Shown here: in pieces, positions 7,696-56,860 of the stretch
Layout: the number at the start of each line of letters is the position of its first letter
Numbering within the stretch: the stretch's first letter is position 1
From: Paractinoplanes ferrugineus
Lineage (GTDB): Bacteria; Actinomycetota; Actinomycetes; Mycobacteriales; Micromonosporaceae
DNA: 64,000 nt
Direction: 5' to 3'
NCBI RefSeq assembly: GCF_016862195.1
Contig: NZ_BOMM01000052.1
Span: forward strand, 1-64,000
The notes under the pieces: generated by a model
Told to the model about the DNA's origin: nothing
What the model saw: only the letters and a program-made list of their open reading frames with translations
Database searches by the model: none
Translations under genes and position numbers: made by a program

Positions 7696-7779
7696 TCAGC
7701 AGTTTTCCGTAGGGGCTCGGACCAGCGGACCGGTTCAGTTCCGGGGCGACCGCGCTGGGCAATTGTCGGTGGGTCCCGA

Positions 7780-7785
7780 TACTGT
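7780..7785 (+). promoter_or_regulatory. Candidate -10 element for leaderless recN mRNA
   Basis: TACTGT fits the actinobacterial TANNNT -10 consensus and ends seven bases before the GTG at 7793. That places the transcription start at or next to the start codon. No Shine-Dalgarno sequence is seen at that GTG. I see no LexA-type SOS box in the nadK-recN gap. Confidence 0.4.
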
Positions 7786-7792
7786 CTGCGTC

Positions 7793-38166: not shown

Positions 38167-39548
<1,382 letters not shown>

Positions 39549-39598
39549 GGCTTGGTAAGGTGTACTGGTTGCCGCGCGGTGCTTTTGCCGGGTGGCAT

Positions 39599-39672
<74 letters not shown>

Positions 39673-39677
39673 CAGCG

Positions 39678-39719
39678 AAGGGGTTTCCGCAGGTCAGAGA
39701 CTTGTGGGAGCCCCTTTTT
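39678..39719 (+). terminator. Intrinsic terminator after tRNA-Pro
   Basis: A stem of 14 pairs (AAGGGGTTTCCGCA with TGTGGGAGCCCCTT, including G-U pairs) and an 11-base loop is followed by a T run ending at 39719. Confidence 0.85.
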
Positions 39720-39788
39720 CGTGTCTGACGACGTCACCGGGATCGAGCACGCCGCTTGTAGACCCCTTGACTCGGCAGGTGACGAGAG

Positions 39789-40751
39789 ATGCCCCTACTG
39801 AAGCTCGACCGACTGTGCGACGGTCTGGAGTCCGGCGACTGGGCCGGCTTCTTGCGCGACTGGGACCGCGCTCTGCGGGCCGGGAATCACCCGGAGACGA
39901 CCCGCTACAACTACCTTCTGGCCGCCGCGCAATTGGCGAAGTATCTGGCCGGCGAGTCCCCCGATCCGGACGCCGATGACGCCGCCCAGGACCCGACCCT
40001 GGTGACCAAGGCACACGTCGAGTCGTTCCAGGCGTGGATGATCGAGACCCGGTCGCCGTCGACCGCGCTGAGCAAGCACAAGAGCTTGCAGCAGTTCTTC
40101 AAGTACCTCCTCGAGGAAGAGGAGATCGACCGGTCGCCGATGGAGCGGGTGAAGCAGCCGCAGACCCCGCAGAAACTCGTGCCGATCATGGGTGACGACG
40201 ACACGAAGAAACTGCTCGATGGCACCAAGGGCAAGACGTTCATGGCGTTGCGGGACGAGGCGCTGATCCGGCTGTATTACAACACTGGTGCCCGGTTGTC
40301 GGAGATCGGCAATCTGCTGCTGACCGATCTGGATATGAACACCGAGTCGGTGCACCTGCACGGCAAAGGCGCCAAGGACCGCCGGGTGAGGTTCGGCCCC
40401 AAGACCTCGCGAGCGATTGCGCGATATCTGCGGGCCCGGGCGAAGCGCAAAGGCGCCGCCGACGTCCCGCAGCTTTGGATGGCCGAGAAGGGCGCAAAGC
40501 CGTTATCCCCGAACGGCATCAAGCTGATGCTCAAGCGCCGTGGTGCCGCCGCCGGCGTGACGAATACGCACGCGCACCGGTGGCGGCACAACTTCGCCCA
40601 CGAATGGCACAAGGGCGGCGGGAACACCGGCGACCTCATGCTGCTTCTCGGCTGGGCGTCGGAGGACATGCCCCGTCGGTACGGCGCGAGTGCTGCGGCG
40701 GAGCGGGCGCAGGAGCTCCAGGTGCAGATGGGCATCGGCGAGCGGGTCTGA
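39789..40751 (+). CDS. Tyrosine-type integrase 1
   Basis: A 320-residue site-specific recombinase. The N-terminal core-binding domain runs to residue about 115. Catalytic residues are Arg in NTGARLSEI, Lys in HGKGAKDRRVRFG, His-x-x-Arg in AHRWRHNFAHEW and Tyr in MPRRYGASAA. The third His position reads Trp (LLGWASEDM), a substitution seen in other integrases. ATG 39789 follows a GAGAG site. It lies 116 bases behind tRNA-Pro and is paralogous, with most positions identical by eye, to the next integrase. It could drive integration of the island into tRNA-Pro, which is inference. Confidence 0.92.
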   Translation: MPLLKLDRLCDGLESGDWAGFLRDWDRALRAGNHPETTRYNYLLAAAQLAKYLAGESPDPDADDAAQDPTLVTKAHVESFQAWMIETRSPSTALSKHKSLQQFFKYLLEEEEIDRSPMERVKQPQTPQKLVPIMGDDDTKKLLDGTKGKTFMALRDEALIRLYYNTGARLSEIGNLLLTDLDMNTESVHLHGKGAKDRRVRFGPKTSRAIARYLRARAKRKGAADVPQLWMAEKGAKPLSPNGIKLMLKRRGAAAGVTNTHAHRWRHNFAHEWHKGGGNTGDLMLLLGWASEDMPRRYGASAAAERAQELQVQMGIGERV

Positions 40752-40759
40752 GCGATTCG

Positions 40760-40797
40760 CCGGCTGCGGCGGCGCGTAGGGTCGCCGTCGCAGCCGG
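40760..40797 (+). terminator. Long GC-rich hairpin after integrase 1
   Basis: CCGGCTGCGGCGGCG (40760-40774) pairs over all 15 positions, one as G-U, with CGCCGTCGCAGCCGG (40783-40797) across an eight-base loop. No T run follows, as is usual for actinobacterial terminators. It separates the two integrase genes. Confidence 0.7.
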
Positions 40798-40983
40798 ACC
40801 GGCGCCAGGGGAGTGGTGGGGGAGGAGTTAGGGGAGGACAGCCGCAGACAGCTATCGCCCGTTGCGCCGCAGCTCGGATGATCGAACGAGCGCCGCGCGT
40901 ACTGGCTCGTGGTGCGATACGTGCCCTTGTACGTAGTCAAGGGATGCACGGTGTCGGCCCGGCGAAGCGTCTGCGAGGTGGAT

Positions 40984-41934
40984 GTGCTCGATCTGCAGAA
41001 GGTCTGCCGCGATCTTCCGCCCGCCTGGTCCGATTACCTGCGGGACTGGGACCGGATGCTGCGCTCCGGGAACTACCCGGAGACCACCCGCTACAGCTAC
41101 CTCCTTGCCGGTGCGCAGCTGAGCCGCTTCCTCGTCGACAACGCCGAGCCGCTGGGTGCCGAGGACGCGGCGGAGGATCCGACCGAGGTCGAGCGGGGGC
41201 ACATCGAGGAGTTCCAGGCTTGGATGGTGCGGACCCGCTCGGCGTCGACGGCGTTGAACAAGCACAAGGGGTTGCAGCAGTTCTTCCGGTGGCTGACCGA
41301 GGAAGAAGACCTGGAGCGTTCGCCGCTGGACCGGATCCGGCAGCCGAAGACCGCCCAGACGCTGATCCCGATCCTGGGCGACGACGACACCGCGAAGATC
41401 CTCGCCACCTGTAAGGGCAAGGACTATCTATCGCTGCGTGACGAGGCCATCATCCGGCTGTTCTACAACACCGGCGCCCGGTTGTCGGAAGTTGCGGGCC
41501 TTCAGTTGGATGATGTGGACCTCAACAGCGATTCGCTGCTATTCCACGGCAAGGGGATGAAGGACCGACGTGTGCGGTTCGGCCCTAAGACCGGCCACGC
41601 GCTGACCAAGTTCCTTCGATCGCGCAGCCGCCGCAAGGCAGCCTCATCTACAGCGATGTGGTTGCCGGCTCGAGGTGCAGTGCCGCTATCGAGCAACGGC
41701 ATCAAGCTCATGCTCCGACGGCGCGGAGTCCTGGCCAGGGTGGACAACGTCCATGCGCATCGCTGGCGGCACAACTTCGCGCACGAATGGAAGCTCGCCG
41801 GCGGTGACACCGGCGATCTGATGCTGGTGCTGGGCTGGTCATCAGACGACATGCCCCGCCGCTACGGCGCGTCAGCGGCAGCCGAGCGAGCCCAAGCGAC
41901 CCACGCGCGGCTGCGAATCGGCGAACGAGTCTGA
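40984..41934 (+). CDS. Tyrosine-type integrase 2
   Basis: A 316-residue paralogue of integrase 1 with the same catalytic set: Arg in NTGARLSEV, Lys in HGKGMKDRRVRFG, HRWRHNFAHEW, Trp replacing the third His in VLGWSSDDM, and Tyr in MPRRYGASAA. GTG 40984 is chosen because GAGG lies five bases upstream and the length then equals that of integrase 1; GTG 40978, 40951 and 40909 are possible. A tandem pair may reflect duplication, or two stacked elements that used the same tRNA. Confidence 0.9.
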   Translation: MLDLQKVCRDLPPAWSDYLRDWDRMLRSGNYPETTRYSYLLAGAQLSRFLVDNAEPLGAEDAAEDPTEVERGHIEEFQAWMVRTRSASTALNKHKGLQQFFRWLTEEEDLERSPLDRIRQPKTAQTLIPILGDDDTAKILATCKGKDYLSLRDEAIIRLFYNTGARLSEVAGLQLDDVDLNSDSLLFHGKGMKDRRVRFGPKTGHALTKFLRSRSRRKAASSTAMWLPARGAVPLSSNGIKLMLRRRGVLARVDNVHAHRWRHNFAHEWKLAGGDTGDLMLVLGWSSDDMPRRYGASAAAERAQATHARLRIGERV

Positions 41935-41950
41935 ACGGGGGAGACAAATC

Positions 41951-42211
41951 ATGGCGTTGACGGCGAAGCAGCGGTCACGGCGGGCGCGGATCGCCGCGCA
42001 CGCCTCATGGGCGAACACAGCAGATCGGCAAGGCCGCACGGCGTCGGCGACGGCATCGTTCCTGGCACGGTTCGAGAAGCAGGTTGATCCACTCGGTGTG
42101 CTGGAGCCGGAGGTCCGGACGACGATGGCGCTGCACGCGCGGCGGGCGTACATGCTGCAGCTGGCGGAGCGTTCGGCGAAGGCACGCGCCCGGGGCGCCG
42201 GTGATGGCTGA
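41951..42211 (+). CDS. Small basic hypothetical protein of integrative elements
   Basis: This 86-residue, Ala/Arg-rich, probably all-helical protein (RIAAHASWANTADRQGRTA, FEKQVDPLGVLEPEVRT, ARRAYMLQLAERSAKARAR) is of a type I recall seeing often near integrases and phage-like genes in actinomycetes. The function is unknown. ATG 41951 has GGGGGAG upstream and lies 16 bases after integrase 2, so co-transcription is likely. Confidence 0.7.
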   Translation: MALTAKQRSRRARIAAHASWANTADRQGRTASATASFLARFEKQVDPLGVLEPEVRTTMALHARRAYMLQLAERSAKARARGAGDG

Positions 42212-42332
42212 TGTCCCCGTTCGAGGTACCAACTCGGCTGCGGCCCGCGGTTCTGCGCGACGATCGAAGCGGCACCGTGGTTCGAGATCAGCAAGGCGAC
42301 ATGATTCGCGTCCACTTGAGAAGGAGACCATC

Positions 42333-43406
42333 GTGACCAACTACGCCATCGACGAGGACACCGGAACGCTGCTGCGAATCTGGCCGACAGGGCGAGGCCA
42401 ACGCGCGGCGGTGGTGGGCGCCTTGCCCGCCGCCGCGAGGGAGGACCGGTTGCGGCTCGCTGCGGCTCTGACGTCGTTGTCCGAAGCGTTGTGGCGCTGC
42501 TATACCCATCCCGGTCTGGCTACCGACGACCCGGACGGCAACGGTGAGGGCTGGCGGCGGGAGCAAAGCCGCGAGGTCTTCTCGCAGCTGGTCGGCTTCA
42601 TCAAGGAGCCGAATCTGCCGGGTGAGGGCGGCGCCATCATCGAGAGCTACGACCCGGTCGAAGAATGGGCTCATAGCGTCGGCCGGGCCGTGCGCGCCAT
42701 CGGCGACGCGAAGCTTTTCGAGGCGGTCAGCGCGGACGTCGCCGCGGAGATCGAAGCGGTCGAGTCCGCCGAACGCGGTGATCTCAGTGGGCGAGCCCAG
42801 CAGGCGGTGGTGTTGAGCCGCACCGACGTGAACCCCGTCCAGGTCGCCGCCGCCGACGGTGTCCTGGCGCTGGACCCGCTGAACGGCGAGCAGCTGTTCG
42901 TGAACGTCGACCCGACCGCCGCATCGGTGGCGGCCGCGCACTGGCTCAAAGCTGCTGCGGACGTTGTCGCCGAAGTGTCCGGCATGCCGGCGGACGAGGT
43001 GGTGCAAGCCGCCGACGACATCGAGGCGTTGCCGGTGGAGACGCCGAGTGAGGTGCTGCGGCTGTTCGACTTCAGCGACACCGCGTACGGCGTGGTGGTG
43101 GAGATGGTTCGCGGGGCGGTTCAGGTCGGTGAAGGCTCTGTCGCTGATCTCGGTGCGCTCCTGGTCGAGCATGACACTGGGGACGACAGCGACGATCCGG
43201 AAGCCGAGCCAACGCCCGTGCGGCTGACCGTATTGGATCCACAACGACCTGCTCTCGATCTGCTGGAAGATCTCCTCACTGGCATCCACGGCTGCCGCCT
43301 GGTCTACGAGGAGTACGTCGACGCCGGCGATGCCGCCGCCACCGACACGCAGTTCTGCGAGGCGGTGCGGGAGCAAGCTAAGAAGGCCTACACCCGCTTG
43401 ATGTGA
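42333..43406 (+). CDS. Hypothetical protein of the integrative region
   Basis: The 357-residue acidic soluble protein has no signal peptide or membrane helix. Recognisable only as helical, with LAAALTSLSEALWRCYTHPG, VEEWAHSVGRAVRAIGDAKLFEAV and LLEDLLTGIHGCRLVYEEYVDAG. I do not know the family. GTG 42333 has a strong AAGGAGA site at 42320-42326. It follows the 86-residue gene by 121 bases and ends 92 bases before the tRNA 3' remnant. Cargo or regulatory function cannot be told. Confidence 0.75.
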   Translation: MTNYAIDEDTGTLLRIWPTGRGQRAAVVGALPAAAREDRLRLAAALTSLSEALWRCYTHPGLATDDPDGNGEGWRREQSREVFSQLVGFIKEPNLPGEGGAIIESYDPVEEWAHSVGRAVRAIGDAKLFEAVSADVAAEIEAVESAERGDLSGRAQQAVVLSRTDVNPVQVAAADGVLALDPLNGEQLFVNVDPTAASVAAAHWLKAAADVVAEVSGMPADEVVQAADDIEALPVETPSEVLRLFDFSDTAYGVVVEMVRGAVQVGEGSVADLGALLVEHDTGDDSDDPEAEPTPVRLTVLDPQRPALDLLEDLLTGIHGCRLVYEEYVDAGDAAATDTQFCEAVREQAKKAYTRLM

Positions 43407-43498
43407 CTATGGAGCTGGCGGAGCGTCATGCATTTCGCTCGCGTATTCTTGCGCTAGGGACATGGCGCCTCCGCGTGCTGCCACCCGAGACCTCGTCG

Positions 43499-43545
43499 AC
43501 ACACTGGCAGTGTGGGGGTCAGGGGTTCGAGTCCCCTCAGCTCCA
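43499..43545 (+). other. 3' half of a tRNA (anticodon GGC, Ala-like), candidate attachment-site remnant
   Basis: An anticodon arm (ACACA/TGTGG, four of five pairs) with loop CTGGCAG is followed by variable loop GGGTC, a perfect T arm AGGGG-TTCGAGT-CCCCT, acceptor strand CAGCTCC and discriminator A. No D arm or 5' acceptor strand is found in the expected 26 bases upstream, so this is not a functional tRNA as it stands. Such 3' halves are left when elements integrate into or excise from tRNA genes. A terminator follows. Confidence 0.7.
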
Positions 43546-43565
43546 CCCTTTCTGAACTGGGAAAA

Positions 43566-43608
43566 CGCATCGTCTGACTCTCCAAGTTAGACGGTGCGGT
43601 TTTTTTTT
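43566..43608 (+). terminator. Intrinsic terminator behind the tRNA remnant
   Basis: CGCATCGTCTGA pairs with TTAGACGGTGCG (12 pairs including G-U) over a nine-base loop, followed by nine T residues at 43600-43608. Confidence 0.9.
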
Positions 43609-44071
43609 GCGCACACATGTGCACACCTGATGATCTTGAAGCGCGATCCGTACCACGTCTCAGAAGCGTCCAATTGTAGGCTGAAAACCACCTCTGAGCT
43701 GTGGAAACACCTTAGAAAGACCGACCATTGACCGTCGGTTCGGCCTCCGGAGAGGCTGTCTAGATCATGGGCGCCGGTGATCCAAATCACATTCTCTTCT
43801 TGTGGAGCCCCGATTCTCCCGTAGGCATCTCGCCGGCTGTCGCTGGCCGTCGCCAAGGCGGCCAGTCAGCCTCCGGGACAGCCTCGGACAGCCTCGGTTA
43901 GGGCCTGTGCAGCTGTTCCCGGCCGCCCAGATCAGCAAGGCTCGGAAGAGCCAGCACAAGCCTTCCTCGGGGCTCCGGCTGGCAGCCGGGGACACCTTCG
44001 TAACGGTGCAGCCCTACGGCCGGGGCCTTCCACGGGCTGCACCGCAGGCGTCCACACGACAGGAGGAACGC
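43609..44071. other. Gene-free stretch between tRNA remnant and HTH gene
   Basis: About 460 bases with lower GC than the core. I see no credible gene; the minus-strand frame here runs through the terminator. The only structure noted is a 10-bp tandem repeat, ggacagcctc, at 43875-43897. It probably holds the promoter of the HTH/replication genes. Confidence 0.5.
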
Positions 44072-44368
44072 ATGGCAGAGCAGGATGCCCAGCAACCGCA
44101 GCGCCGGGACGCCGACCAGGATCTCTACTTCTCCGTGGAGCAGGTGGCCGCCAAGCTGAAGGTCTCAGCACGATGGCTCGCCGATCAGTGCCGTGATGGC
44201 CGAGTCGAGCACGTACACCTCGCAAGGAAGCGCAAGTTCACTCCCGCGCAGGTTCAGAAGCTCCTCGACAGCCACACGGTCAAGCCGGCGGAGGTTCGGG
44301 AGCAAGAACGGGGGCATGAGCGTGCGGTGCAACGCGTGCTTCGGGAGCGCGCGCGACAGCGCCGCTAG
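44072..44368 (+). CDS. Excisionase-like small helix-turn-helix protein
   Basis: The 98-residue protein holds a MerR/Xis-type winged helix in the middle: FSVEQVAAKLKVSARWLADQCRDGRVEHVHLARKRKFTPAQVQKLLD. The tail is basic and helical. ATG 44072 has a near-perfect AGGAGG six bases upstream. Its position before a Prim-Pol replication gene and its size match the excisionase/regulator of actinomycete integrative elements; an HTH regulator of replication is the alternative. Confidence 0.75.
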   Translation: MAEQDAQQPQRRDADQDLYFSVEQVAAKLKVSARWLADQCRDGRVEHVHLARKRKFTPAQVQKLLDSHTVKPAEVREQERGHERAVQRVLRERARQRR

Positions 44369-44563
44369 AGACGCTTATACGGGTCTTATTGGCGCCGGGA
44401 ATGCTCTGACTCCCACAAGAATTTCTGTGGGGGTCACCTCTCCCTGGCCGCAATGAAAATTGCAGCCTGACCGCCCAGAGACTGTATCCCAGGGCCGCCT
44501 TCACCGCCAGCGGCACGACGGCGCTATGTCGTCGATGCACGCAAGTAGCTCAATGGGGATTAA

Positions 44564-47041
44564 GTGAATAGCACACCAGACACCCTCTCGGCAGCAATGG
44601 CCTGGTTCGATGCGGGCTGCGCAGTCATTCCCATTCGTGCGGATGGAAGCAAAGCGCCTCTCGTGCCATGGCGCAGTTATATGCACACGCCGCCCGACCG
44701 AAGACAAGTCGAAGAATGGTTCACGGGTAACCCTCCGGGAGTGGCCATTGTGTGTGGCAGTTCTTCCTCGGGGCTTGAGATGCTCGAGCTCGAAGGACGA
44801 GCAGTCGACGAGGGATTAGGGCAGGCGCTGATTGACCTCCTTACCCAAGCTGGCCTAGCCGACCTTTGGAAACGCGTAACGGCCCACGGTTATTGGGAGA
44901 GGACACCGTCCGGAGGGGTCCATATCCTTTACAGGATCAGCGACGCCGAGGTCGATAGGAACCTCAAACTCGCACGGCGACCCGCTACCGAGTACGAGCT
45001 CTCGATCGATGCAACCGACAAGATCAAGACGCTTGCCGAAACCCGGGGCGAAGGCGGCTATACGATCGTCGCCCCGTCCAACGGCACCGTGCACGAAACG
45101 CGCCGCCCGTGGGTGGCCCTTAGCGGATCAACGCCCGCGCGCATTCCGGTCATCAGCGTGACCGAACGGGCGGCGTTGTTGGACGCGGTTCGAGCGCTTG
45201 ATGAAATGCCGCCCCCGCCACTCACTGCGCCGCATCGTCCGGCTCCGCCGTCAACGGGACAGGGCATTACGCCGGGCGATGACTTCGAGCTGCGTATGGA
45301 CTGGAGCGACCTATTGGTGCCCGCCGGGTGGACGCTCGTGCACACGGCGGGACGCACGCGGTATTGGCGCCGCCCGGGAAAGAGCACTGGAGTTTCTGCG
45401 ACGACGGGTCGCGCTGACGACCGCGATCGCCTCTTCGTGTTCAGCAGCAGCACTGTGTTCGAGACGGAGACGCCCCTGACGAAGTTTCACGTCTTTGCGG
45501 TGCTTCACCACGGCGGAGACCATCGAGCGGCCGCTCGCGCGCTGCGTAACGACGGATACGGTCGACGACTCGATGCGGAACCGGCACCGGATGACTCGGC
45601 TACAGGCTCAGGCGTCCGAGAGCCTCGGGAAACGGCGCCAGTCCACGCCCCCGTCGTCCGGGAAACGGTGTCGCCGCCAGCAGCATGGGGACCAACGGAA
45701 GACGGACTGGCTCGCGCCCTGGTCGCCCACCACGGTCATGAGCTGCGATATTGCCCCCAACGAGGAGCTTGGCTGTTGTGGGCGGGGCATCGCTGGGTCT
45801 GGGACGACGCCGAACGGCACCGGGAGTACGTGAGGGAACTGGCTCGGCAGTTGCCCAGCGCCGGCGGCTGGCGTCGTTTCCGATCTCAAGCGTTGTCTGC
45901 CGGCGGAGTATCCGGCGTAGTGCGCCTGGCACGTTCGGACCCCGCGGTGACCGTGTCCTTGGCCGCGCTGGACGCCCGTCCCTATGAGCTGAACACTCCA
46001 GCAGGTGTGGTGGACCTTCGGACCGGCGAGGTGAGTGCCGCGGATCCGCGGCTTCTACACACTCGATCGACGGCGGTGGCGGCGGACTTCGAGCGGCGGT
46101 CGGAAGTCTTCACCGCCTTCCTGCATGACACCTTCGGCGATGACGACGAGCTCGCGGGGTACGTACAGCGGCTGATCGGCGTGTCGGCCATCGGCAGTGT
46201 GCTTGAGCAGCTGCTTCCGTTCGCGGTGGGACCTGGAGCGAATGGCAAGTCGACGCTGCTGGAAGCAGCGATGCATGCCCTGGGCCGTGGCGATGACGGC
46301 TATGCCCGGGCAGGGTCGTCGGAGATGTTGATGGTGCGCAAGCATGCTGAGCATCCGGCGGAGCTGGCGCAGCTGTCCGGTGCGAGGTTGGTGGTGTGTG
46401 CGGAACTAGATGAGGGTCAGCGTTTCGCTGAGGCGCGGGTCAAGCAGTTGACCGGTCGGGACTCGTTGTCGGCGCGGTTCATGCGGCGAGACTGGTTCAC
46501 GTTCGAGCCCAGCCACACGCTGTGGCTGCTCGGCAATCACCTGCCGGCGGCCCGGGCGGGCGGGCCGGCGTTCTGGAGGCGCATTCGGGTACTGCCGTTC
46601 AACCGCGTGGTACCACCGGAGCGGCAGGACAAGAAGCTCGGCGAGCGTCTGGCGCAGGACGCACCCGCAATCTTGGCGTGGATCATCGCAGGGGCAGCGG
46701 CATATCACCAGGGCGGGCTTCGCGAGCCGGTGTCGGTGTCCTCGGCCACTGAGGCATATGCCCGGGATCAGGACACCGTTGGCCGCTTCGTTGAGGAGCA
46801 ATGCCACCGCCAGCCCGGGTCTGCGGGTGTGCGGACCGCGGTCAGCGTGCTACGGGAGGCGTATCAGCAGTGGTGCGAGCAACTGGGCGAACGGCCCGTG
46901 TCGGCCAAGCGCCTGACGCAGGAGCTGCAGAGCCGTTTCGGCGTCGCCGACGCCCGGGGCGGCAAGGGGCAGCGCTTTTACACCGGCATTGCGCTGCTGG
47001 ACGCCGATGACCTCCAGGCCGTACTGCCGGTCGAGTCGTGA
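44564..47041 (+). CDS. Prim-Pol / D5-type SF3 helicase replication protein
   Basis: An 825-residue protein. Residues about 8-200 form an archaeo-eukaryotic-type primase-polymerase: AMAWFDAGCAVIPIRADGSK, MLELEGRAVDEG (Glu pair where many members have Asp) and RTPSGGVHILYRI. The middle is D5_N-like (LIGVSAIGSVLEQLLPFAVG). The C-terminal helicase has Walker A GPGANGKSTLLEA near residue 555, Walker B LVVCAELDEG and sensor LWLLGNHLPAA. It would prime and unwind DNA for autonomous replication of the element. GTG 44564 (no strong ribosome-binding site) begins the conserved part. Confidence 0.9.
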   Translation: MNSTPDTLSAAMAWFDAGCAVIPIRADGSKAPLVPWRSYMHTPPDRRQVEEWFTGNPPGVAIVCGSSSSGLEMLELEGRAVDEGLGQALIDLLTQAGLADLWKRVTAHGYWERTPSGGVHILYRISDAEVDRNLKLARRPATEYELSIDATDKIKTLAETRGEGGYTIVAPSNGTVHETRRPWVALSGSTPARIPVISVTERAALLDAVRALDEMPPPPLTAPHRPAPPSTGQGITPGDDFELRMDWSDLLVPAGWTLVHTAGRTRYWRRPGKSTGVSATTGRADDRDRLFVFSSSTVFETETPLTKFHVFAVLHHGGDHRAAARALRNDGYGRRLDAEPAPDDSATGSGVREPRETAPVHAPVVRETVSPPAAWGPTEDGLARALVAHHGHELRYCPQRGAWLLWAGHRWVWDDAERHREYVRELARQLPSAGGWRRFRSQALSAGGVSGVVRLARSDPAVTVSLAALDARPYELNTPAGVVDLRTGEVSAADPRLLHTRSTAVAADFERRSEVFTAFLHDTFGDDDELAGYVQRLIGVSAIGSVLEQLLPFAVGPGANGKSTLLEAAMHALGRGDDGYARAGSSEMLMVRKHAEHPAELAQLSGARLVVCAELDEGQRFAEARVKQLTGRDSLSARFMRRDWFTFEPSHTLWLLGNHLPAARAGGPAFWRRIRVLPFNRVVPPERQDKKLGERLAQDAPAILAWIIAGAAAYHQGGLREPVSVSSATEAYARDQDTVGRFVEEQCHRQPGSAGVRTAVSVLREAYQQWCEQLGERPVSAKRLTQELQSRFGVADARGGKGQRFYTGIALLDADDLQAVLPVES

Positions 47042-47069
47042 TCAACCAGGCGGCCGGCCGCCGGCGAGA

Positions 47070-47195
47070 GGTGACAGGTGACAGATGTTCCCGGGTTTCC
47101 CGGTTGACGGCTATCGCGCGCGCGGGCGCGCGGACATGTGGTGCGCGCACGGTGCCGGTCAGCCTGCAACCGGGGATGATCTGTCACCTGTCACC
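47070..47195. repeat. 17-bp inverted repeat of doubled GGTGACA units; candidate replication origin
   Basis: GGTGACAGGTGACAGAT (47070-47086) and its exact reverse complement (47179-47195) flank 92 bases. Inside lies a second perfect inverted repeat, CCCGGTTG (47099-47106) with CAACCGGG (47167-47174), and an alternating CG stretch. Each outer arm is two direct copies of a 7-bp unit, like iterons. It lies 29 bases after the Prim-Pol/helicase gene. Confidence 0.8.
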
Positions 47196-47280
47196 CACGA
47201 CGCTTCTGTCGGAAAGCCGACATCATTCAGTGACTGACGCCGATACACCGGGTTGTGTCACACGCCGATCTTGCACCAGG

Positions 47281-48234
47281 ATGTCCGGCATGGGGGGTCT
47301 GGAATACCGGCGAGGAATGCATCAGCTCGGCCGAGGCACGTGGGCCTATCTCAGTCCGCCAGGCACGTGGGGGTGGAGCAACTGCGGCCTGCTCGTCGAT
47401 GGAGCGCATGGGTTGCTGGTGGACACCCAGTTCGATCTGCCGTTGACGCGGGAACTGCTGGCCGCCGTCGCCGAGGTCGCGCCGGGGGTAGAGATCAGCA
47501 CGGTGGTGACCACGCACGCGAACGGCGATCACTGCTGGGGTAACGAGCTGCTGCCGCGAGCGGAGGTGGTCGGCTCGTCGGCGTGCGGGCTCGGCATGGC
47601 GCACGAGGTGCAGCCGGCCGAGTTGGCAGCGCTGAGCGGCCCCGGGTCGCCGGCCACACCACTGGGCGATTACATGCGCCGGCACTTCGGCGCCTTCGAC
47701 TTCGAGGGCATCACGGTGACGCCCCCGACCCGCACCTTCACCGGTCAACTCGACCTGGCCCTGGGAAACCGGCGGGTCGAGCTCATAGAAGTCGGACCGG
47801 CACACACCGACGGTGATGTGATCGTGCACATGCCCGACGTCGGCGTGGTGTTCGCCGGAGACATCCTGTTCATCGGTGGGCATCCGATCATGTGGACCGG
47901 ACCTATCCGGAACTGGATCAGCGCATGCGACCGGATCGCGGAGACCGGCGCGGATCACGTCGTCCCGGGACACGGACCTGTCACCGACCAGGCTGGAGTG
48001 GCCGTGTTCCGCGGTTACCTCGAATGGGTTGCCGACTGGGCACGGAAGGCTTATGGGGCGGGCCTGCCGTACTGGGAGGCCGGCGACCCGCGGAGGCTAC
48101 CCGCAGCGTATGCGGGGTGGGGCAATCCGGAGCGGCTGGTGATCACTATGGCTGCGGCATATCGCGAGCTGGGTGACGGGCCCCACGAATTGCTGGATGT
48201 GCTCGCGAAGACCGCTGCCGCCGAACCCAGGTAG
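47281..48234 (+). CDS. MBL-fold metallo-hydrolase
   Basis: The 317-residue protein has the metallo-beta-lactamase pattern: GLLVDTQFD, THANGDHCWGNELL (metal site with Asn in place of the second His of HxHxDH), GPAHTDGDVIVHMPD, VVFAGDILF and VPGHGPVT. Members with HxNxDH form a recognised clade; substrate is unknown, thioester- or ester-type hydrolysis being likely. ATG 47281 is chosen; ATG 47290 and 47317 are in frame. It abuts the convergent MmyB regulator with no intergenic space. Confidence 0.88.
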   Translation: MSGMGGLEYRRGMHQLGRGTWAYLSPPGTWGWSNCGLLVDGAHGLLVDTQFDLPLTRELLAAVAEVAPGVEISTVVTTHANGDHCWGNELLPRAEVVGSSACGLGMAHEVQPAELAALSGPGSPATPLGDYMRRHFGAFDFEGITVTPPTRTFTGQLDLALGNRRVELIEVGPAHTDGDVIVHMPDVGVVFAGDILFIGGHPIMWTGPIRNWISACDRIAETGADHVVPGHGPVTDQAGVAVFRGYLEWVADWARKAYGAGLPYWEAGDPRRLPAAYAGWGNPERLVITMAAAYRELGDGPHELLDVLAKTAAAEPR

Positions 48235-49095
48235 TCAGTGGGGTCGCTTGGGTCCGTCGGGCTCGATCGGCACGAGCATCATCAGCCGGCTCGCCTGTGC
48301 ACGCAGGGGAGCGAAGGCGATCAGCTCGATCGGCTGCAGCCGTTTGTGCAGGGGAAGGTGCAGGTAGCGGTGATCGCCGTCGGGATGGGGGTAGGTGATC
48401 GGGTGTTGCTGGAAGCGCCGGGCGTCCGCGTTGACGTCGAGGATCTCCTCGATCACGGCGGCGAGCCGCTTGTTCTCTGGTTGCCGCGCCTGAGCGAACT
48501 GCATCTGGGCGAACATCTGCGGTCCCCAGTCGGTGTCCCAGTTGTGCAGCTGGGTGCGGGCCTCGGGGAACGTGAAGACCCAGCGCATGATGTTGTTCTC
48601 GTGGCCCTCGACCCACGGGAACCAGCGGCTCATGTGCTCGTTGAAGGCGACCAGGTCCCACGCCTCGTCGTTGACGTAGGCGGGCCAGGGCTGCGCGTCG
48701 ACGATGCGCTGGATCGTCGGAGTGGATCGCATCCTCGACTGGTGGACCGTGATGGTTAGCGCGTGCCCGGTGGCGAGGAAGAACAGCATGCTCTTCTCCG
48801 CCTCGTTCAAGCGCAGGGTGTAGGCCACGCGGTTGAGGAAGTCATCGGAGTAGTTCTGCAGCACTCCGCGCTCGAGCGCGCTGTACCAGCCGACGCTGTA
48901 GCCGGTCAGCGCGGCGACGGTCTCCTTGCTCACCCGGCGGTGGCGGCGGTTGCGAGGCAACGATGCGTGCAGTCCGGGGATCTCGTCGGGGTTGAGCCGC
49001 AACCTCCAAGCGTGGACGTGGCGCGCGAGGTCGTCGCTCAGTTCGGGCGGAGTCTGGCGGGGCGTCGTCTCATCGGTCGGGGGCTCAGAGGTCAT
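48235..49095 (-). CDS. MmyB-type XRE regulator
   Basis: The 286-residue regulator has an XRE HTH (RVSKETVAALTGYSVGWYSALERGVLQNYSDDFLNRVAYTLRL). The MmyB-like ligand domain follows (WPAYVNDEAWDLVAFNEHMSRWFPW, NIMRWVFTFPEARTQLHNWDTDW), which in characterised structures binds fatty-acid-like ligands. Such genes are typically divergent from a short-chain dehydrogenase that they control; here the FabG-like gene lies 336 bases away in that arrangement. Confidence 0.92.
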   Translation of the reverse strand: MTSEPPTDETTPRQTPPELSDDLARHVHAWRLRLNPDEIPGLHASLPRNRRHRRVSKETVAALTGYSVGWYSALERGVLQNYSDDFLNRVAYTLRLNEAEKSMLFFLATGHALTITVHQSRMRSTPTIQRIVDAQPWPAYVNDEAWDLVAFNEHMSRWFPWVEGHENNIMRWVFTFPEARTQLHNWDTDWGPQMFAQMQFAQARQPENKRLAAVIEEILDVNADARRFQQHPITYPHPDGDHRYLHLPLHKRLQPIELIAFAPLRAQASRLMMLVPIEPDGPKRPH

Positions 49096-51337: not shown

Positions 51338-52038
51338 CCGTGGCTACCTCCCCTCACTCAGGCCCGGCGGCCGGCGTCCACAGCGGACCCACAGCTATCG
51401 CAAAGTTACCTATCCACCTGCGCGGCACCGTGTCAAGGAGACCGAATTCGCAGCCAGAAGGACAGCCCCGGACAGCCCCGGACAGCTACCCCGAACGCAC
51501 GATGTCGCCGAGGGTCGAACTCGTGGCAAATGCTGGTCCGACTCTAGACGTGTACCCGCGCAGACGGGGCGCACCCCCGGTCACGGCTGCACCTACGCCC
51601 GCACTCGAAGCGAGCCCGCCGCGGTCGTGGCCCACCAGATCGCGGATGGCGCGCGTTCCGCCTCGGCACCGTGCCGTCCTCCTGCGCCGCCTGCTCATCC
51701 TGGCCTGCCGACGCGCGGAGAAGTCGAAGCCAACGCACAGCGCGCTGACTCGTCCGACCGGACGTCGCGCTCAGCCCCCTTAGTTCCCCCACGAAAGGTC
51801 TCGATCATTGCGGCCGCGTCACCTAAACGCTTGCCTGTCGGGCAGCGGGCCTCTGACCGCAGCCGCGGCGACCTGCGCCTCTGCCTGGACACGCGCCTCA
51901 ACACGGCGTCTCCCACGAGGCGCTGACTGCTCCGCACCTGATCTCAAGCGTGCCGCCTCGTGCACCTCGCAGCGCGCTGGGCCACCACCTCTCTCATCCC
52001 TGTCTTTGCACCGATCACTGCTTCACGGGGGAAACAGC
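51338..52038. other. 701-bp gene-free region upstream of the AsnB-like operon, with 10-bp tandem repeats
   Basis: No frame here looks like a gene. A period-10 direct repeat (ggacagcccc, almost three copies) lies at 51461-51486 and resembles the one at 43875-43897. The downstream operon promoter must lie here, but I could not place it. An in-frame TTG at 51808 with GAAAGG upstream could extend the AsnB-like protein by 77 residues; the extension has no conserved features. Confidence 0.5.
51461..51486. repeat. Period-10 direct repeats
   Basis: GGACAGCCCC, GGACAGCCCC and GGACAG occur head to tail. One helical turn per unit would present repeated protein contacts on one DNA face. A related array (GGACAGCCTC) lies at 43875-43897. 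Confidence 0.6.
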
Positions 52039-53817
52039 ATGGCAATCACCGGGTGGATCCATCCCAAACGGGACCTGCGCGACGAGCGACCCGCCGTCAA
52101 CGCGATGACCGTCGCGCTCACCGCCGGCACGTTGCGCCGCGACGTCGTCCGGCTGGCCCGCCACGCCGCGTTCGCCCACCTCGGGCTGGCCAGCGGCTAC
52201 GCCGACTGGCGGCATCCCGAACGCCCCGATCCGGACCTGGTCCTGGTCATCGACGGGCAGCTGACCAACCGCGGTCATCTCGACGAGCAGCTGTACGGCC
52301 GGGCCCGGCCGCTGTCGGCTGACGCCGAGGTGCTCCTGCACGCCTACCGGACGTGGGGACCCGGCCTGGTCGACCGGATCGACGGCGCATACGCCATCGC
52401 CATCTGGGACAACCTCGCCCGGCAGTTGCTGCTCATCCGCGACCCGCTCGGCGCTCGCACCCTGTTCTTCACGTTGGTGGACGGCGGGATCATATTTGCG
52501 ACCCGAGCCACGGCTCTGCTGGCCCACCCGCAGGTCAAACCGGTCATCGACGCCGACGGCCTCAACGAGTTGCTTACCCTTGGCCCGGTACGCACGCCCG
52601 GCCACGGCGTCCTGGACGAGGTGGCCGAGGTCCTGCCCGCCGAAATCATCCAGGCAGGCGCGGACGGGCTGCGCCGGCGTTCGTACTGGTATCTCGAAGC
52701 CGACGACCCCCGCCCCGACGCCGCCACCGCCGTGCAGGTCGTGCGTCAAGCGCTGGCCGAGACCACCGCGGCGCACCGCACACGACCGGCGGGCGCGGTG
52801 CTGCTGTCCAGGGGCATCGCGTCCGGCGCCGCAGCCGTCTACGCCGCCGGAACCTCCGGCCATCGGCCAGCCGCCTGGACCCTCGCCCTGACCGGTCCGC
52901 AAGATCCGCCCGCAGACGGTGGCGCGGACGTGGACCAGGCCGAACGCGTCGCCGAGCAGCTACGCCTACGGCACGACGTATTCGCCATCGACACGGACAC
53001 GCTCCTCGACACCGCGCACGCCGCGCGCGAGGCCCTCGATTTCCCCTGCGAAGCCGGCACGGATGCCGTCTTGCTCGCGGGGCTTCGGCGGATCGCCGCC
53101 GCCGGCAGCACCAGCGTGGTCACCGGCGACGGCGCGAACGCGGTGTTCGGCGGCTACCGGTGGCTGCACGAGCCGCTCACCCTGGCCACCGACGACTTCC
53201 CCTGGCCCGGCGTCGGCGACCCCGCAGAACTCCTGAACGCTGACGCCCGCCGCCATCTCATGCCCGGGGTCTATCGCCGGCACCGCTACGAGCAGGCCAC
53301 CCTCGGCGTGCCGCACCAGGCCGGCGCCGACGCACTGGCACGACGCCGACGCACGATGGCATACCTGACTCTCACCCGGTATGTGCCGTACCTGCTGACC
53401 CGGCTCGGCCAGCTCGCCGACGCCGCCGGAGTCACCCTGCGCACTCCTTTCGCCGACTGGCTGCTCGCGGCCTACCTGTTCAACACGCCGACGGGCCTGC
53501 GGCACCTGCTCGGCATCCCGAACGGGCTGCTGCGGCACGCCGTCGCCGGTGTATTGCCGGACGAGACCATCTGGCTGCGACCCCGCCAGTTCCCTAGCGC
53601 CGACCTGCTGCACGGGTGGCAGCAAACCCGTCTCGATCAGCTGCGTGATGTCCTCACCGACCGCGAGGCACCGCTGCGCCCGCTGCTGGACCGAGACCGC
53701 GTCACCGACCTGGTCACCCGGCCTGCGGGTCCGGGAGGCGAACGCGGTACGGCCACCGTCGGCTACCTGCTCGACGTCAACGCCTGGTTGCAGCGCCACC
53801 ACATCTCGCTCACCTGA
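52039..53817 (+). CDS. Asparagine-synthetase (AsnB)-like protein with lost catalytic motifs
   Basis: The 592-residue protein aligns by motif order with actinobacterial glutamine-hydrolysing asparagine synthetases but is altered at the key sites. The N-terminus is MAITGW instead of MCGITGW, so the glutaminase Cys is missing. The ATP-pyrophosphatase loop SGGLDSS reads LSRGIASG (residues 255-263). GESADEVFGGYRW reads GDGANAVFGGYRW (363 onward), and the LEVRVPFCDHRLVE segment reads VTLRTPFADWLLAA. It cannot use glutamine and may bind ATP differently or not at all. ATG 52039 has GGGGGAAAC upstream. It heads an operon with a P450 and a decarboxylase, suggesting a secondary-metabolite role such as amide formation, or a structural pseudoenzyme. 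Confidence 0.88.
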   Translation: MAITGWIHPKRDLRDERPAVNAMTVALTAGTLRRDVVRLARHAAFAHLGLASGYADWRHPERPDPDLVLVIDGQLTNRGHLDEQLYGRARPLSADAEVLLHAYRTWGPGLVDRIDGAYAIAIWDNLARQLLLIRDPLGARTLFFTLVDGGIIFATRATALLAHPQVKPVIDADGLNELLTLGPVRTPGHGVLDEVAEVLPAEIIQAGADGLRRRSYWYLEADDPRPDAATAVQVVRQALAETTAAHRTRPAGAVLLSRGIASGAAAVYAAGTSGHRPAAWTLALTGPQDPPADGGADVDQAERVAEQLRLRHDVFAIDTDTLLDTAHAAREALDFPCEAGTDAVLLAGLRRIAAAGSTSVVTGDGANAVFGGYRWLHEPLTLATDDFPWPGVGDPAELLNADARRHLMPGVYRRHRYEQATLGVPHQAGADALARRRRTMAYLTLTRYVPYLLTRLGQLADAAGVTLRTPFADWLLAAYLFNTPTGLRHLLGIPNGLLRHAVAGVLPDETIWLRPRQFPSADLLHGWQQTRLDQLRDVLTDREAPLRPLLDRDRVTDLVTRPAGPGGERGTATVGYLLDVNAWLQRHHISLT

Positions 53818-53861
53818 GCCGCCACCAAATCCCCGCGAAAATCCTGTATCGGGAGCATGCG

Positions 53862-55127
53862 ATGAGACTCGACCCGTTCAGCGGCCCTTACAGCCGCGAC
53901 CCCGCCACCACCTGGCAGCGCCTCAACGCCACCGCCACGCCCATCAGCTACGACGACGACCTCGAGATGTGGCTGATCGCCGGCCACGACAACGTCCGTA
54001 CCGTGCTGTCCGACACCGCCCGTTTCAGCAACGCCGCCACCCTGCTGCCGATCACCGCGCTCACCGTCGACGCCGGTGCCATCCTGGCCGGTCTCGACGC
54101 CCCGCCGGTGGCCGTGACCGCCGATCGCCCGCAGCACCTGCGCACCCGCGGCATCCTGCGGGCGTTGATGCCCACCACCGCGGTCCGCGCCGAACAGCAG
54201 TGGGGGCCGCTCGTCACGGCCCGCACCGATGAACTCCTCACCGACATGAAGGCCAGCGAGCCGACCGACCTGATGCACTTCGCGGTGCAACTGCCGCTGC
54301 TGGTCATCCATGACGTCCTCGGCCTGCCGGCCGCGGCTTCTGAAATGATCCGCGGCTGGACCGACGACTTCGCCGATCTCGTCTGGGGAAACCCCACCCC
54401 CGAAGTGCAGATCGCGTACGCCTACTCGAGCGTCGCGTTGTGGCGGTATTGCGCCGACATCGTCTCCCGGCGCGCTGAGCGCGGCCACTACGGCGCCGGT
54501 CTGATCGGTGAGCTGCTGCGCTACCGCAACAACGACGACAGCAACCTCACCGTCGCCGAGGTCGCGGCCCTGGCCCTCAACATCGTAGGCGCCGGCTGGA
54601 TCACCACCGCCGGCGCCCTCGGCAACGCCCTCGCCCACGCCCTGGCCGATCCCGGCCGGTGGGCGCTACTGGCCGGCAACGAGCACTATCTCAACCTGCA
54701 CGTCGAGGAAACCCTGCGGCATAGCCCCGCCATCGACGGCTGGCTGCGCCTGACCATCACCGACGTCACCCTCGACGGTGTCACCATCCCCGCCGGCAGC
54801 CGCTGCCTGGTCCTGATCGGCGCGGCGAACCACGACCCCGCCGTCTACACCGAACCCGAGGTCTTCGATCCCCACCGCGGCCGCGCCGGGCAACATCTCG
54901 CCTTCGGCGCCGGACCGCACTACTGCATCGGCGCCGCTCTGGCCCGCCTCGAACTCACCACCGCGCTGCGCGCCCTGGCCGGCCGGCTGCCGGATCTCGC
55001 CGTGGCCGACGGGTTCCGGCAGCAGTTCAAGACCAGCGCGGCCCTGCGCCAGCTCACCAGCCTGCCCGTCCAGCAGCGTCCGGCCGGGCGGTGCCCCGTC
55101 GGGCACGGCACCTCGGCGGAGTCATGA
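53862..55127 (+). CDS. Cytochrome P450
   Basis: A 421-residue bacterial class-I P450. Heme ligand motif FGAGPHYCIGAALARLE, K-helix ETLR, and I-helix VGAGWITTAGAL, where the acid normally before the two Thr residues is Ile; proton delivery or reaction type may therefore be unusual. No redox partner gene is nearby. ATG 53862 has GGGAG upstream; the stop overlaps the decarboxylase start (ATGA). It probably oxidises an intermediate of the same pathway. Confidence 0.95.
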   Translation: MRLDPFSGPYSRDPATTWQRLNATATPISYDDDLEMWLIAGHDNVRTVLSDTARFSNAATLLPITALTVDAGAILAGLDAPPVAVTADRPQHLRTRGILRALMPTTAVRAEQQWGPLVTARTDELLTDMKASEPTDLMHFAVQLPLLVIHDVLGLPAAASEMIRGWTDDFADLVWGNPTPEVQIAYAYSSVALWRYCADIVSRRAERGHYGAGLIGELLRYRNNDDSNLTVAEVAALALNIVGAGWITTAGALGNALAHALADPGRWALLAGNEHYLNLHVEETLRHSPAIDGWLRLTITDVTLDGVTIPAGSRCLVLIGAANHDPAVYTEPEVFDPHRGRAGQHLAFGAGPHYCIGAALARLELTTALRALAGRLPDLAVADGFRQQFKTSAALRQLTSLPVQQRPAGRCPVGHGTSAES

Positions 55128-55534
55128 CTGCACACGGCACGACCGACACTCGCCCGCCCGGTCTCGTCATCCGCTCCCCGCGCGCCCACCGGGCCATGAA
55201 CGCGCGCCTGCGCGCTGTTGAGGCGCGGGTGGCCGCAGCCGGCCCCACGAACATCGGGTTCCCGGCGGCCCGTGACATCGACTACCGGCCGTTGGCGCCC
55301 CTGCTGGGGCATCTGCTCAACAACCTCGGCGACCCGCGCATCGACCCGTTGTACCCGGGCCACGTGCACGATCTGGAACGTGAGGTGCTCGACTTCACCG
55401 CCGAGCTGTTCCGGGCACCGTCCGGCTGGAGCGGCTACCTCAATAGCGGCGGCACCGAAGGCAACCTGTACGGCATGTGGCTCGGCCGCACCAAACTCCC
55501 GAACGCCGTCGCCTACTACTCCAGCGCCGCGCAC
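55124..55534 (+). pseudogene. Truncated histidine-decarboxylase-type PLP enzyme (N-terminal 137 codons)
   Basis: The fragment begins with ATG 55124 overlapping the P450 stop and follows the group II histidine decarboxylase pattern: NIGFPAARDIDYRPLAPLL, HLLNNLGDPR, SGYLNSGGTEGNLYGMWLGR and AYYSSAAH. Homology stops after His137, just before the YSV segment; the PLP-Lys half is missing. The frame continues without a stop into the recombinase downstream. The full-length paralogue at 59241 shows what is lost. The break is attributed to insertion of the recombinase pair. Confidence 0.85.
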
Positions 55535-55636
55535 CCTGTTGACCGAACTACCTGGCAAAACCACCGCGCGGCAGGTTCGAACGGCCATCGGCAGTCGGTA
55601 TCAACCATGCGACGTCCATTGAGGAGTTGCGTGGTA

Positions 55637-56860
55637 ATGATGGTTCGAGATCGTGATCTTGCCTCGTTGGTCCTGCCCCGTTGGGGCCGGGTGGTCCGGG
55701 TCGACGGCCCCCTTCCGTTCGTGGTTGTCGACGCGGACGGTTCGGCGGTCGAGCCAATTGAGGTTTTCTTGCGGGATTTCGTGGCCCGCGGCAGCAGTCA
55801 GGGAAGCGTGCGCAGCTACGCGTACGCGTTGGTGCGCTGGTGGCGGTTTCTGCGTGTGGTCGAGGTCGGTTGGGAGCGGGCGACGTCGGCGGAGGGCCGC
55901 GACTTCGTGTTGTGGATGCGGCAGGCGCGTAAGGGGGCCGGCGCTCGCAAGGACCGATCGACGTTCGAGCCGGGGTCGGTGAATCCGGTTACCCGCAAGC
56001 AGCGTTTGGACGACAGCTTCAAGGTCACGACGGTGCGGCACAGCAATGCGGTGCTGCATACGTTTTACGAGTTCTGGATCGAGCAGGGCACCGGCCCGCT
56101 GGTGAATCCGATGCCTCGCGATGCGGCGCGGGGGCAGCGGCCGCACGGGCATCACAACCCGATGGAGCCGTTCCGGGCGGAGGGACGGCTGCGCTACAAC
56201 CCGAAGTTGCCTCGCCGCAGGGTTCGGGCGATGCCGGACGAGGCGTGGGAGGCGCTGTTCGCGGCGTTGCGGTCGGAGCGGGACCGGGCGATCACCGCGC
56301 TGGCGGTGAGCACGGGGGCGCGGGCCGGGGAGCTGCTCGGTATCCGGCTCGCGGATGTGGACTGGGGCGATCAGCTGATCCGGGTGCAGCGCAAGGGCAC
56401 GGGCGCCGAGCAGTGGCTACCCGGGAGCCCGGAAGCGTTCTTGTGGTTGCGGCTGTATCTGGAACAGGTTGGGCCGCTGCGGCCCGGTGACGTGCTCTGG
56501 GTGACGCTGCGCCGGCGCGGACCGGGCCGAGTCCGGCGGCCGTTGAGCTACGACGCACTACGGGCGGTGCTACGCAGGGTGAACCACCTGTCGGGCGCAA
56601 ACTGGACGATGCACGACCTGCGGCACACCTGTGCGCTGCGGATGGCCCGTGATCCGCGGCTGAGCTTGGTCGATATCCAACGGATTTTGGGCCATGCCCA
56701 CCTGTCGACGACGCAGATCTACCTGCAGGCCGATGACCACGAGGTGATCGACAAGGTCAGCCAGTATCTCGCCACGCCGCCGCCGTCGGCTGCGGGAGCT
56801 GTCGCACACGGGTACGCGGCGCACGACGTGGCCGTGCTGCTGGGCGGGACGAGCCGTTGA
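55637..56860 (+). CDS. Tyrosine recombinase of a two-gene mobile element (TnpA-like)
   Basis: The 407-residue recombinase has a core-binding domain (SQGSVRSYAYALVRWWRFL) and catalytic residues Arg in STGARAGELLG, Lys in VQRKGTGAEQ, His/Arg in MHDLRHTCALRMA, His in ILGHAHLSTTQ and Tyr in IYLQ. GAGGAG at 55621-55626 supports ATG 55637 (or GTG 55631). The TTG of the next recombinase overlaps its stop, so the pair is translationally coupled. Size and order resemble TnpA and TnpB of Tn554-like elements. Confidence 0.88.
   Translation: MMVRDRDLASLVLPRWGRVVRVDGPLPFVVVDADGSAVEPIEVFLRDFVARGSSQGSVRSYAYALVRWWRFLRVVEVGWERATSAEGRDFVLWMRQARKGAGARKDRSTFEPGSVNPVTRKQRLDDSFKVTTVRHSNAVLHTFYEFWIEQGTGPLVNPMPRDAARGQRPHGHHNPMEPFRAEGRLRYNPKLPRRRVRAMPDEAWEALFAALRSERDRAITALAVSTGARAGELLGIRLADVDWGDQLIRVQRKGTGAEQWLPGSPEAFLWLRLYLEQVGPLRPGDVLWVTLRRRGPGRVRRPLSYDALRAVLRRVNHLSGANWTMHDLRHTCALRMARDPRLSLVDIQRILGHAHLSTTQIYLQADDHEVIDKVSQYLATPPPSAAGAVAHGYAAHDVAVLLGGTSR

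Follow-up and report, generated by a model that had tools for sequence, protein, structure and literature searches.

The 126-base module that lies behind a primase-helicase gene at positions 47070-47195 of the window (the whole 64,000-nucleotide stretch of DNA analysed here) is very probably the vegetative replication origin, or an essential part of it like the crr of P4, of an integrative and probably conjugative element. The first-pass annotation had proposed an initiator-bound origin of an integrative element, and this remains the best reading, with the layout being kept in the closely related modules of alignment A2 and in about half of the distant loci. We read the module as the origin of the element because it matches the published layout of PICI and SaPI origins; the origin is of a known general kind, and its core and its carrier are what differ. 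The finding would provide a sequence rule by which the origins of many Prim-Pol/D5 replicons, among them phages, plasmids, and islands, can be located from the stop codon of one gene, and it points to the protein domain that should bind the module. It also suggests that some actinobacterial conjugative elements may carry their own replicon, contrary to the general assumption, and raises the question of how a GC-rich duplex is opened by a pair of SF3 hexamers facing each other.

Table 1. Features of the module, the adjoining primase-helicase gene, and the left part of the mobile element, in window coordinates
Feature	Position	Strand	Remarks
tRNA-Pro(GGG)	39599..39673	+	candidate present attachment site
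Tyrosine integrase 1	39789..40751	+	PF00589 3.5e-23
Tyrosine integrase 2	40909..41934	+	PF00589 5.1e-23
47-bp exact copy of tRNA-Ala(GGC) 3' end	43500..43546	+	candidate old attachment site
Helix-turn-helix/excisionase-like gene	43802..44368	+	phrog_1840 excisionase 2.4e-11; upstream of the primase
Prim-Pol + D5_N/SF3 helicase, 825 aa	44564..47041	+	proposed initiator, helicase, and primase
C-terminal winged-helix domain, ~aa 735-820	46766..47023	+	proposed iteron binder
Left arm GGTGACAGGTGACAGAT	47070..47086	+	GGTGACA iterons 47070-47076 and 47077-47083, then GAT; conserved in alignment A2
Core between the arms	47087..47178	no strand	92 bases, not AT-rich
Alternating purine-pyrimidine tract	47115..47155	no strand	34/40 steps, within the core
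Right arm ATCTGTCACCTGTCACC	47179..47195	-	exact inverse of the left arm; iterons 47182-47188 and 47189-47195

The perfect 17-bp inverted repeat with a 92-base gap that the first-pass annotation described is present, as are the two 7-bp direct units claimed for each arm, with GGTGACA standing in tandem in both, and the left arm does begin just downstream of the primase-helicase gene, 28 bases intervening between its stop and the first unit. An 8-bp inverted repeat had also been reported inside the larger one, and a perfect copy does occur in the core (CCCGGTTG, 47099-47106, and CAACCGGG, 47167-47174), but it is not conserved: among the nine rows of A2, CAACCGGG is restricted to that of the window, so that conservation backs the outer arms and the core tract only, and the nested repeat was dropped as a functional part. 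The tandem 14-mer made of two GGTGACA units has two sites in the 9,407,631-base genome, both of them arms of the module, and its reversed control has none; the window holds two perfect 17-bp inverted repeats with arms no more than 300 bases apart, the other being at 2186/2211. Enrichment in the window was found neither for the single 7-mer (9 observed against 8.3 expected) nor for the 14-mer with up to 3 mismatches (6, including the two perfect sites, against 6.1 expected), and an Rfam scan of 39000-49000 at the gathering score matched a tRNA alone.

A primase-based search of genome contigs returned ten loci, of which six (L003-L008) match the primase gene over nearly its full length at 72-91% identity, and the module is present in each, with degenerate left units in L007. 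Alignment A2 brings together nine modules (those of the window, L003-L008, L019, and the viral contig L128), in which the arms are nearly invariant and the layout is kept; L128, which encodes a relative of the window primase at 51% identity, counts both in A2 and in the 67 survey clusters described below, yet was retrieved via the motif itself. BLAST homology with the window continues into the next gene in L003, L005, and L006, ends at 47010, short of the module, in L007, and ends at 47196, one base beyond the right arm, in L004 (with ~240 bases of its sequence remaining), L008, and G198, so that in L004 and L008 the downstream sequence differs while the module persists. This persistence bears on the suggestion that the module is a pair of transposon ends, a terminator, or an operator of the next gene, which encodes a metallo-beta-lactamase fold. 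The module is indeed intergenic, and in L005, where an insertion puts ~680 bases between the primase and the intact module, it has stayed beside the metallo-beta-lactamase gene and away from the primase; with the module being kept in L004 and L008, simple consensus scans finding no promoter or terminator pattern at it, and the genome holding a single copy, we regard this suggestion as highly improbable. Two of the relatives are decayed: the primase frame of L008 (Actinoplanes subtropicus) is broken (6001-8471) and was left out of the protein alignments, and Actinoplanes sp. NBRC 103695 has primase fragments on two contigs (L011 and L012).

The same layout recurs behind distant primase-helicase genes, where a blind scan of the downstream sequence found inverted pairs of tandem units built from other unit sequences; its many weak 6-mer matches were discarded in favour of stricter detectors. 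The exact detector, which asks for two direct copies of an exact 6-mer 7-11 bases apart and two inverted copies spaced likewise within a span of at most 200, found the layout in 43 of 112 primase loci (not dereplicated), against 1 of 1404 control tiles taken elsewhere in these loci and none of 2240 shuffles. The survey set comprises 113 loci minus L027, which has too little sequence, and is counted as 67 clusters (68 with that of L027), the window, L004, L005, and L006 falling inside the cluster of L003. With dereplication and at most one mismatch, the layout is found in 41 of the 67 D5-type primase-helicase loci versus 55 of 1664 tiles, and by position in 37 of 67 at the stop codon, compared with 11 of the 751 windows placed at 12 other offsets. 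An 8-mer detector gave 34/67 versus 1/857 at up to two mismatches, 42/67 versus 10/857 at up to three, and 44/67 versus 36/857 at up to four. Loci fetched later carry the layout at the stop in 13 of 29 cases versus 3 of 255 windows elsewhere; of 156 such loci, 147 have a stop followed by 250 bases of sequence, and only the 29 clusters that are wholly new at 85% DNA identity were counted; their protein family is that of the first set, so they are new loci and not an independent family. Comparison with sequences behind other Prim-Pol genes, a check suggested in the first-pass annotation, did not refute the proposal, the layout being kept in the nine A2 modules as well as in these 37 and 13 distant loci.

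Across the 41 positive loci the unit spacing is 9 in 14, 10 in 8, 7 in 7, 8 in 2, and 11 in 1, with unequal spacing in the other 9; the left arm is the G-richer in 34, the C-richer in 3, and even in 4, and GTGAC or GTG is frequent inside the units. The layout is not universal, as no module was detectable in 26 of the 67 dereplicated loci (at most one mismatch) and 16 of the 29 later ones, and iterons were absent from six of ten named phage and plasmid records (phiBT1, BMP-1, Icarian, JCL1032, Cyan, and a Kitasatospora plasmid), the four with iterons being Methanoculleus virus L4768, rho14, RcapNL, and Patt. Some of the survey negatives resemble a worn layout by eye and were left out of the counts.

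The core of the module departs from what is published for such origins. According to passages of PMC6092414, PICI origins always have two iteron sets around an AT-rich region, and the cores in our survey are AT-richer than their own loci (mean 0.43 versus 0.33, 41 loci, Wilcoxon 2e-10), whereas the window core has an AT content of 0.27 against 0.30 for the entire window; the cores of L003, L007, and L019 match their loci in AT content, and that of L008 is slightly AT-richer (0.39 versus 0.31). What marks the window core is alternation of purines and pyrimidines: its 41-base alternating tract has no equal across the 64 kb, and none of 1000 shuffles of the core attained its number of steps (maximum 31). 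Alternation is found in all nine A2 modules (p ≤0.004), with longest unbroken runs of 11 in the window, 26 in L019, and 28 in L128. Over 37 of the 41 armed loci (those with a core of at most 130 nt, the core of L128 being too short here, as the detector picked an inner repeat), the longest run has a mean of 14.3, compared with 6.5 for shuffled sequence and 6.2 for tiles of the locus; 14 of the 37 cores contain a run of at least 16, in every case centred between 0.43 and 0.51 of the core. At the stop codon, 24 of 67 loci have an unbroken run of this length, compared with 3 of 587 windows elsewhere, and in the later set 12 of 29 do, compared with 0 of 255; among the seven later loci with both features, the tract sits at 0.45-0.52 of the core in six and outside it in one. 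About two thirds of the loci are without a long unbroken tract, and among the four positive named records RcapNL alone has a 16-nt run in its core, by eye off-centre.

A core that is nearly perfectly alternating instead of AT-rich looks new: open-licence PMC literature yielded nothing joining Z-DNA with iterons and replication origins and nothing on origins behind primases in satellites, and titles and the starts of abstracts yielded nothing on alternating tracts in such origins. Left-handed DNA may be one physical reading of the tract, and loose pyrimidine-purine stacking another. Tentatively, and with distinctly less confidence than we place in the origin itself, we propose that many Prim-Pol/D5 (AEP-SF3) replicons, pRN1 included, share a three-part origin made of an iteron pair, a core centred on an alternating tract, and a mirrored iteron pair. 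In the clear cases the tract runs for 16-28 nt without interruption; that of the window is 41 nt long and broken six times. Under strain from two opposed hexamers, opening of the tract would take the form of left-handed or weakly stacked DNA. If this were true, such origins would possess an opening element other than AT richness, suited to GC-rich hosts.

The inverted symmetry of the module invites another explanation, namely that a DNA structure, a cruciform or stem-loop, is recognised by the replication protein in place of iterons. This is what the authors of the pRN1 study concluded: as set out in sections of PMC4234260, the origin is without iterons and consists of a 21-nt stem and a 58-nt loop, 54 bp behind orf904, the stem-loop being recognised and phage BIP-1 given as a second case. 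In the window, folding of 130 bases gives -46.4 kcal/mol (z -6.2), and in 69 of 90 cells the bases linking the units complement each other. Against this, the units are kept in the 9 of 41 loci where their spacing differs between the arms and a stem would bulge, and the core by itself is unremarkable (fold z -1.8); the palindromy of the alternating tracts is at expectation (0.780 versus 0.782, n=36), so that alternation rather than hairpin potential seems to be what is kept. For A2, consensus folding gives a covariation term of +0.74, with 3 of 32 pairs changed on both sides, the arms being too invariant to tell. On balance we consider structural recognition unlikely. The same fold score, lack of covariation gain, and lack of excess palindromy led us to reject a conserved hairpin in the core; an inner inverted repeat is mildly enriched in the cores (mean 5.55 versus 4.20, n=47, Wilcoxon 3e-6), partly due to CG runs.

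The pRN1 stem itself (5084-5182 of its record) contains a pair of TGTCCA units at 9-base spacing and its mirror image, and is caught by the exact detector; judged by its letters, the "stem" reads as two mirrored iteron pairs, a reading that is ours and not that of the authors and that is apparently new. The pRN1 stem-loop origin thereby becomes re-testable as mirrored iterons. For BIP-1 as a second case this is unsupported, its near-identical sister BMP-1 giving no iteron match, a point in favour of structural recognition. The two systems are alike in that ORF904, as the window protein, combines Prim-Pol, an SF3 helicase, and a C-terminal winged helix, followed by an inverted structure of ~100 bp (126 bp in the window); they differ in unit sequence, in the polarity of the units, which is reversed, and in that pRN1 has no long alternating run by eye. 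A related observation, reported in part of PMC7581432, is that Cch2 of SCCmec binds direct repeats behind its own gene and that deleting the inverted repeats there has no effect.

The protein proposed to act on the module has Prim-Pol (9.3e-13) and D5_N (4.7e-26) matches in Pfam together with a DUF5906 domain, and its C-terminal part scores 272.4 bits (cutoff 108.7) against TIGR01613, the P4-family primase C-terminus. The model of the helicase part (aa 395-825, pLDDT 92) matches AsfvPrimPol, poxvirus E5/D5, and the SaPI5 primase-helicase 7ola, the last being a link to the SaPI elements. The P4 origin-binding domain is C-terminal in the alpha protein. In the window protein, the C-terminal domain (pLDDT 74) resembles the P4 structure 1ka8 at rank 3 (VIA-align: Z 8.2, rmsd 3.6, 79 of 100 residues aligned), a Z that barely exceeds the level the tool calls uninformative, with RFX DNA-binding domains ranking higher (Z 10.2 and 9.9), so that the match speaks for likeness of fold only and shows no function. 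The window protein thus shares with P4 alpha the helicase C-terminus and an origin-binding-like fold. P4 alpha binds its origin repeats via a winged helix and ORF904 has its winged helix at the C-terminus (both from passages of PMC4234260), and SaPI Rep is described in an excerpt of PMC7581432 as binding DNA through its C-terminal domain; from these precedents C-terminal binding is expected here too. The first-pass annotation had assigned DNA binding to the N-terminal domain, and this we revise: by analogy and from the model, the C-terminal winged helix is the likelier site and the likely binder of the GGTGACA units.

We envisage that the C-terminal winged helix of the primase binds the units, that each two-unit arm nucleates one SF3 hexamer, and that, owing to the facing orientation of the arms, two hexamers would load around the core duplex in opposition and open it; the Prim-Pol domain would then prime on the separated strands, and host enzymes would carry out extension. 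This mechanism is inferred from what is published for related SF3 systems: in the account given in part of PMC9894130, two head-to-head hexamers load at the SV40 origin, and SaPI origins mirror this with repeats in opposite orientation. SV40 large T antigen is likewise an SF3 initiator, a comparison made from papers alone, and differs from our proposal in that its binding domain is N-terminal, as stated in a passage of PMC7581432. A more speculative addition is that the alternating tract could be the opening site, through a strain-driven B-Z change or its loose pyrimidine-purine steps.

The closest published layout is that of PICI and SaPI elements (EcCICFT073 and SaPIbov1), in which, according to the relevant parts of PMC6092414, the primase-helicase gene is directly followed by two iteron sets around a core, and a rep-ori segment lets a conditional plasmid form colonies, which disappear when rep is missing and become fewer when ori is. 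The window agrees with them in having the origin directly behind the gene and two iteron sets; it departs from them in having an alternating core where theirs is AT-rich, and in the conjugation genes near the module. P4 offers a second parallel, as its crr lies directly behind alpha, starting 46 bases past its end, and its type 1 iterons mostly read TGTTCACC, i.e., GGTGAACA, against GGTGACA in the window. P4 differs in its Toprim-type primase (so described in a section of PMC4234260), where the window has an AEP Prim-Pol, and in unit spacing (9 between the crr units 4314 and 4323, 7 bp in the window), and its crr escapes the exact detector. The P4 record also holds both an ori and a crr, with type 1 iterons at 9310-9413 within ori, away from crr, and by this example replication could start at some other place, the module instead being where the primase or a different factor binds for partition, incompatibility, or copy control. 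Unlike in P4, the exact tandem unit of the window is confined to one genomic module, with no second exact tandem copy in the genome, and in pRN1, on the evidence in portions of PMC4234260, 100 bp behind orf904 are enough together with the rep operon. We give such a site a low probability, and an origin remains the preferred reading.

The carrier has the marks of a conjugative element. Its tyrosine integrases stand at tRNA-Pro(GGG), as in T4SS-type ICEs, and with a MobF (TrwC) relaxase and a coupling protein they resemble the AICEs and T4SS-type ICEs described in parts of PMC3218068. The coupling protein (TraG-D_C 2.1e-18; L133:14143-16002) and the relaxase (194.5 bits, cutoff 100; L134:14801-19255, contig 94801-99255) are encoded on the contig of the module, 27-52 kb to its right. 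That they and the primase belong to one element is inferred from the order of genes, which to the right is common to G170 and G180 up to ~99 kb, with gaps. An SCO6880-family protein was found, and among the ORFs tried there was no VirB4 match; of the two ends, attL and attR, the left side alone was located, no further exact copy of the 40-nt end of tRNA-Pro occurring up to 100 kb. Since the right end was not found and no VirB4 homologue was identified, we call the element no more than likely conjugative. The relaxase raises the thought that the module is instead an oriT; its gene is ~47.6 kb away, and the layout also occurs behind phage primase genes, which makes a transfer origin very improbable. 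With regard to replication, the available text of PMC3218068 relates that some actinobacterial AICEs carry Prim-Pol genes and that T4SS-type ICEs, few exceptions aside, are generally assumed to lack autonomous replication; unlike ICEs as so assumed, the window carries a primase-helicase-origin cassette.

Homology of L003, L004, and L008 with the window begins exactly at 43500, the start of the tRNA-Ala copy, which in L003 and L008 falls within a complete tRNA-Ala, no complete tRNA being called in L004; the 47-mer is also present in G180. The same cassette behind two different tRNA genes fits an element that has switched its integrase. A complete tRNA-Ala(GGC) lies on contig C11 of the genome, which ends 80 bases beyond it. 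Copies of ~43 bases of the tRNA-Pro 3' end recur across many genomes of the genus, four being listed on contig C50 here, which is a sign of an integration hotspot. At 51808-60437, genes for an asparagine-synthase-like protein, a cytochrome P450, two further integrase-family proteins, and a PLP decarboxylase may represent cargo or an old insertion, and L134:9651-12803 encodes a caspase-domain protein fused to a DEAD-box helicase, possibly a defence gene.
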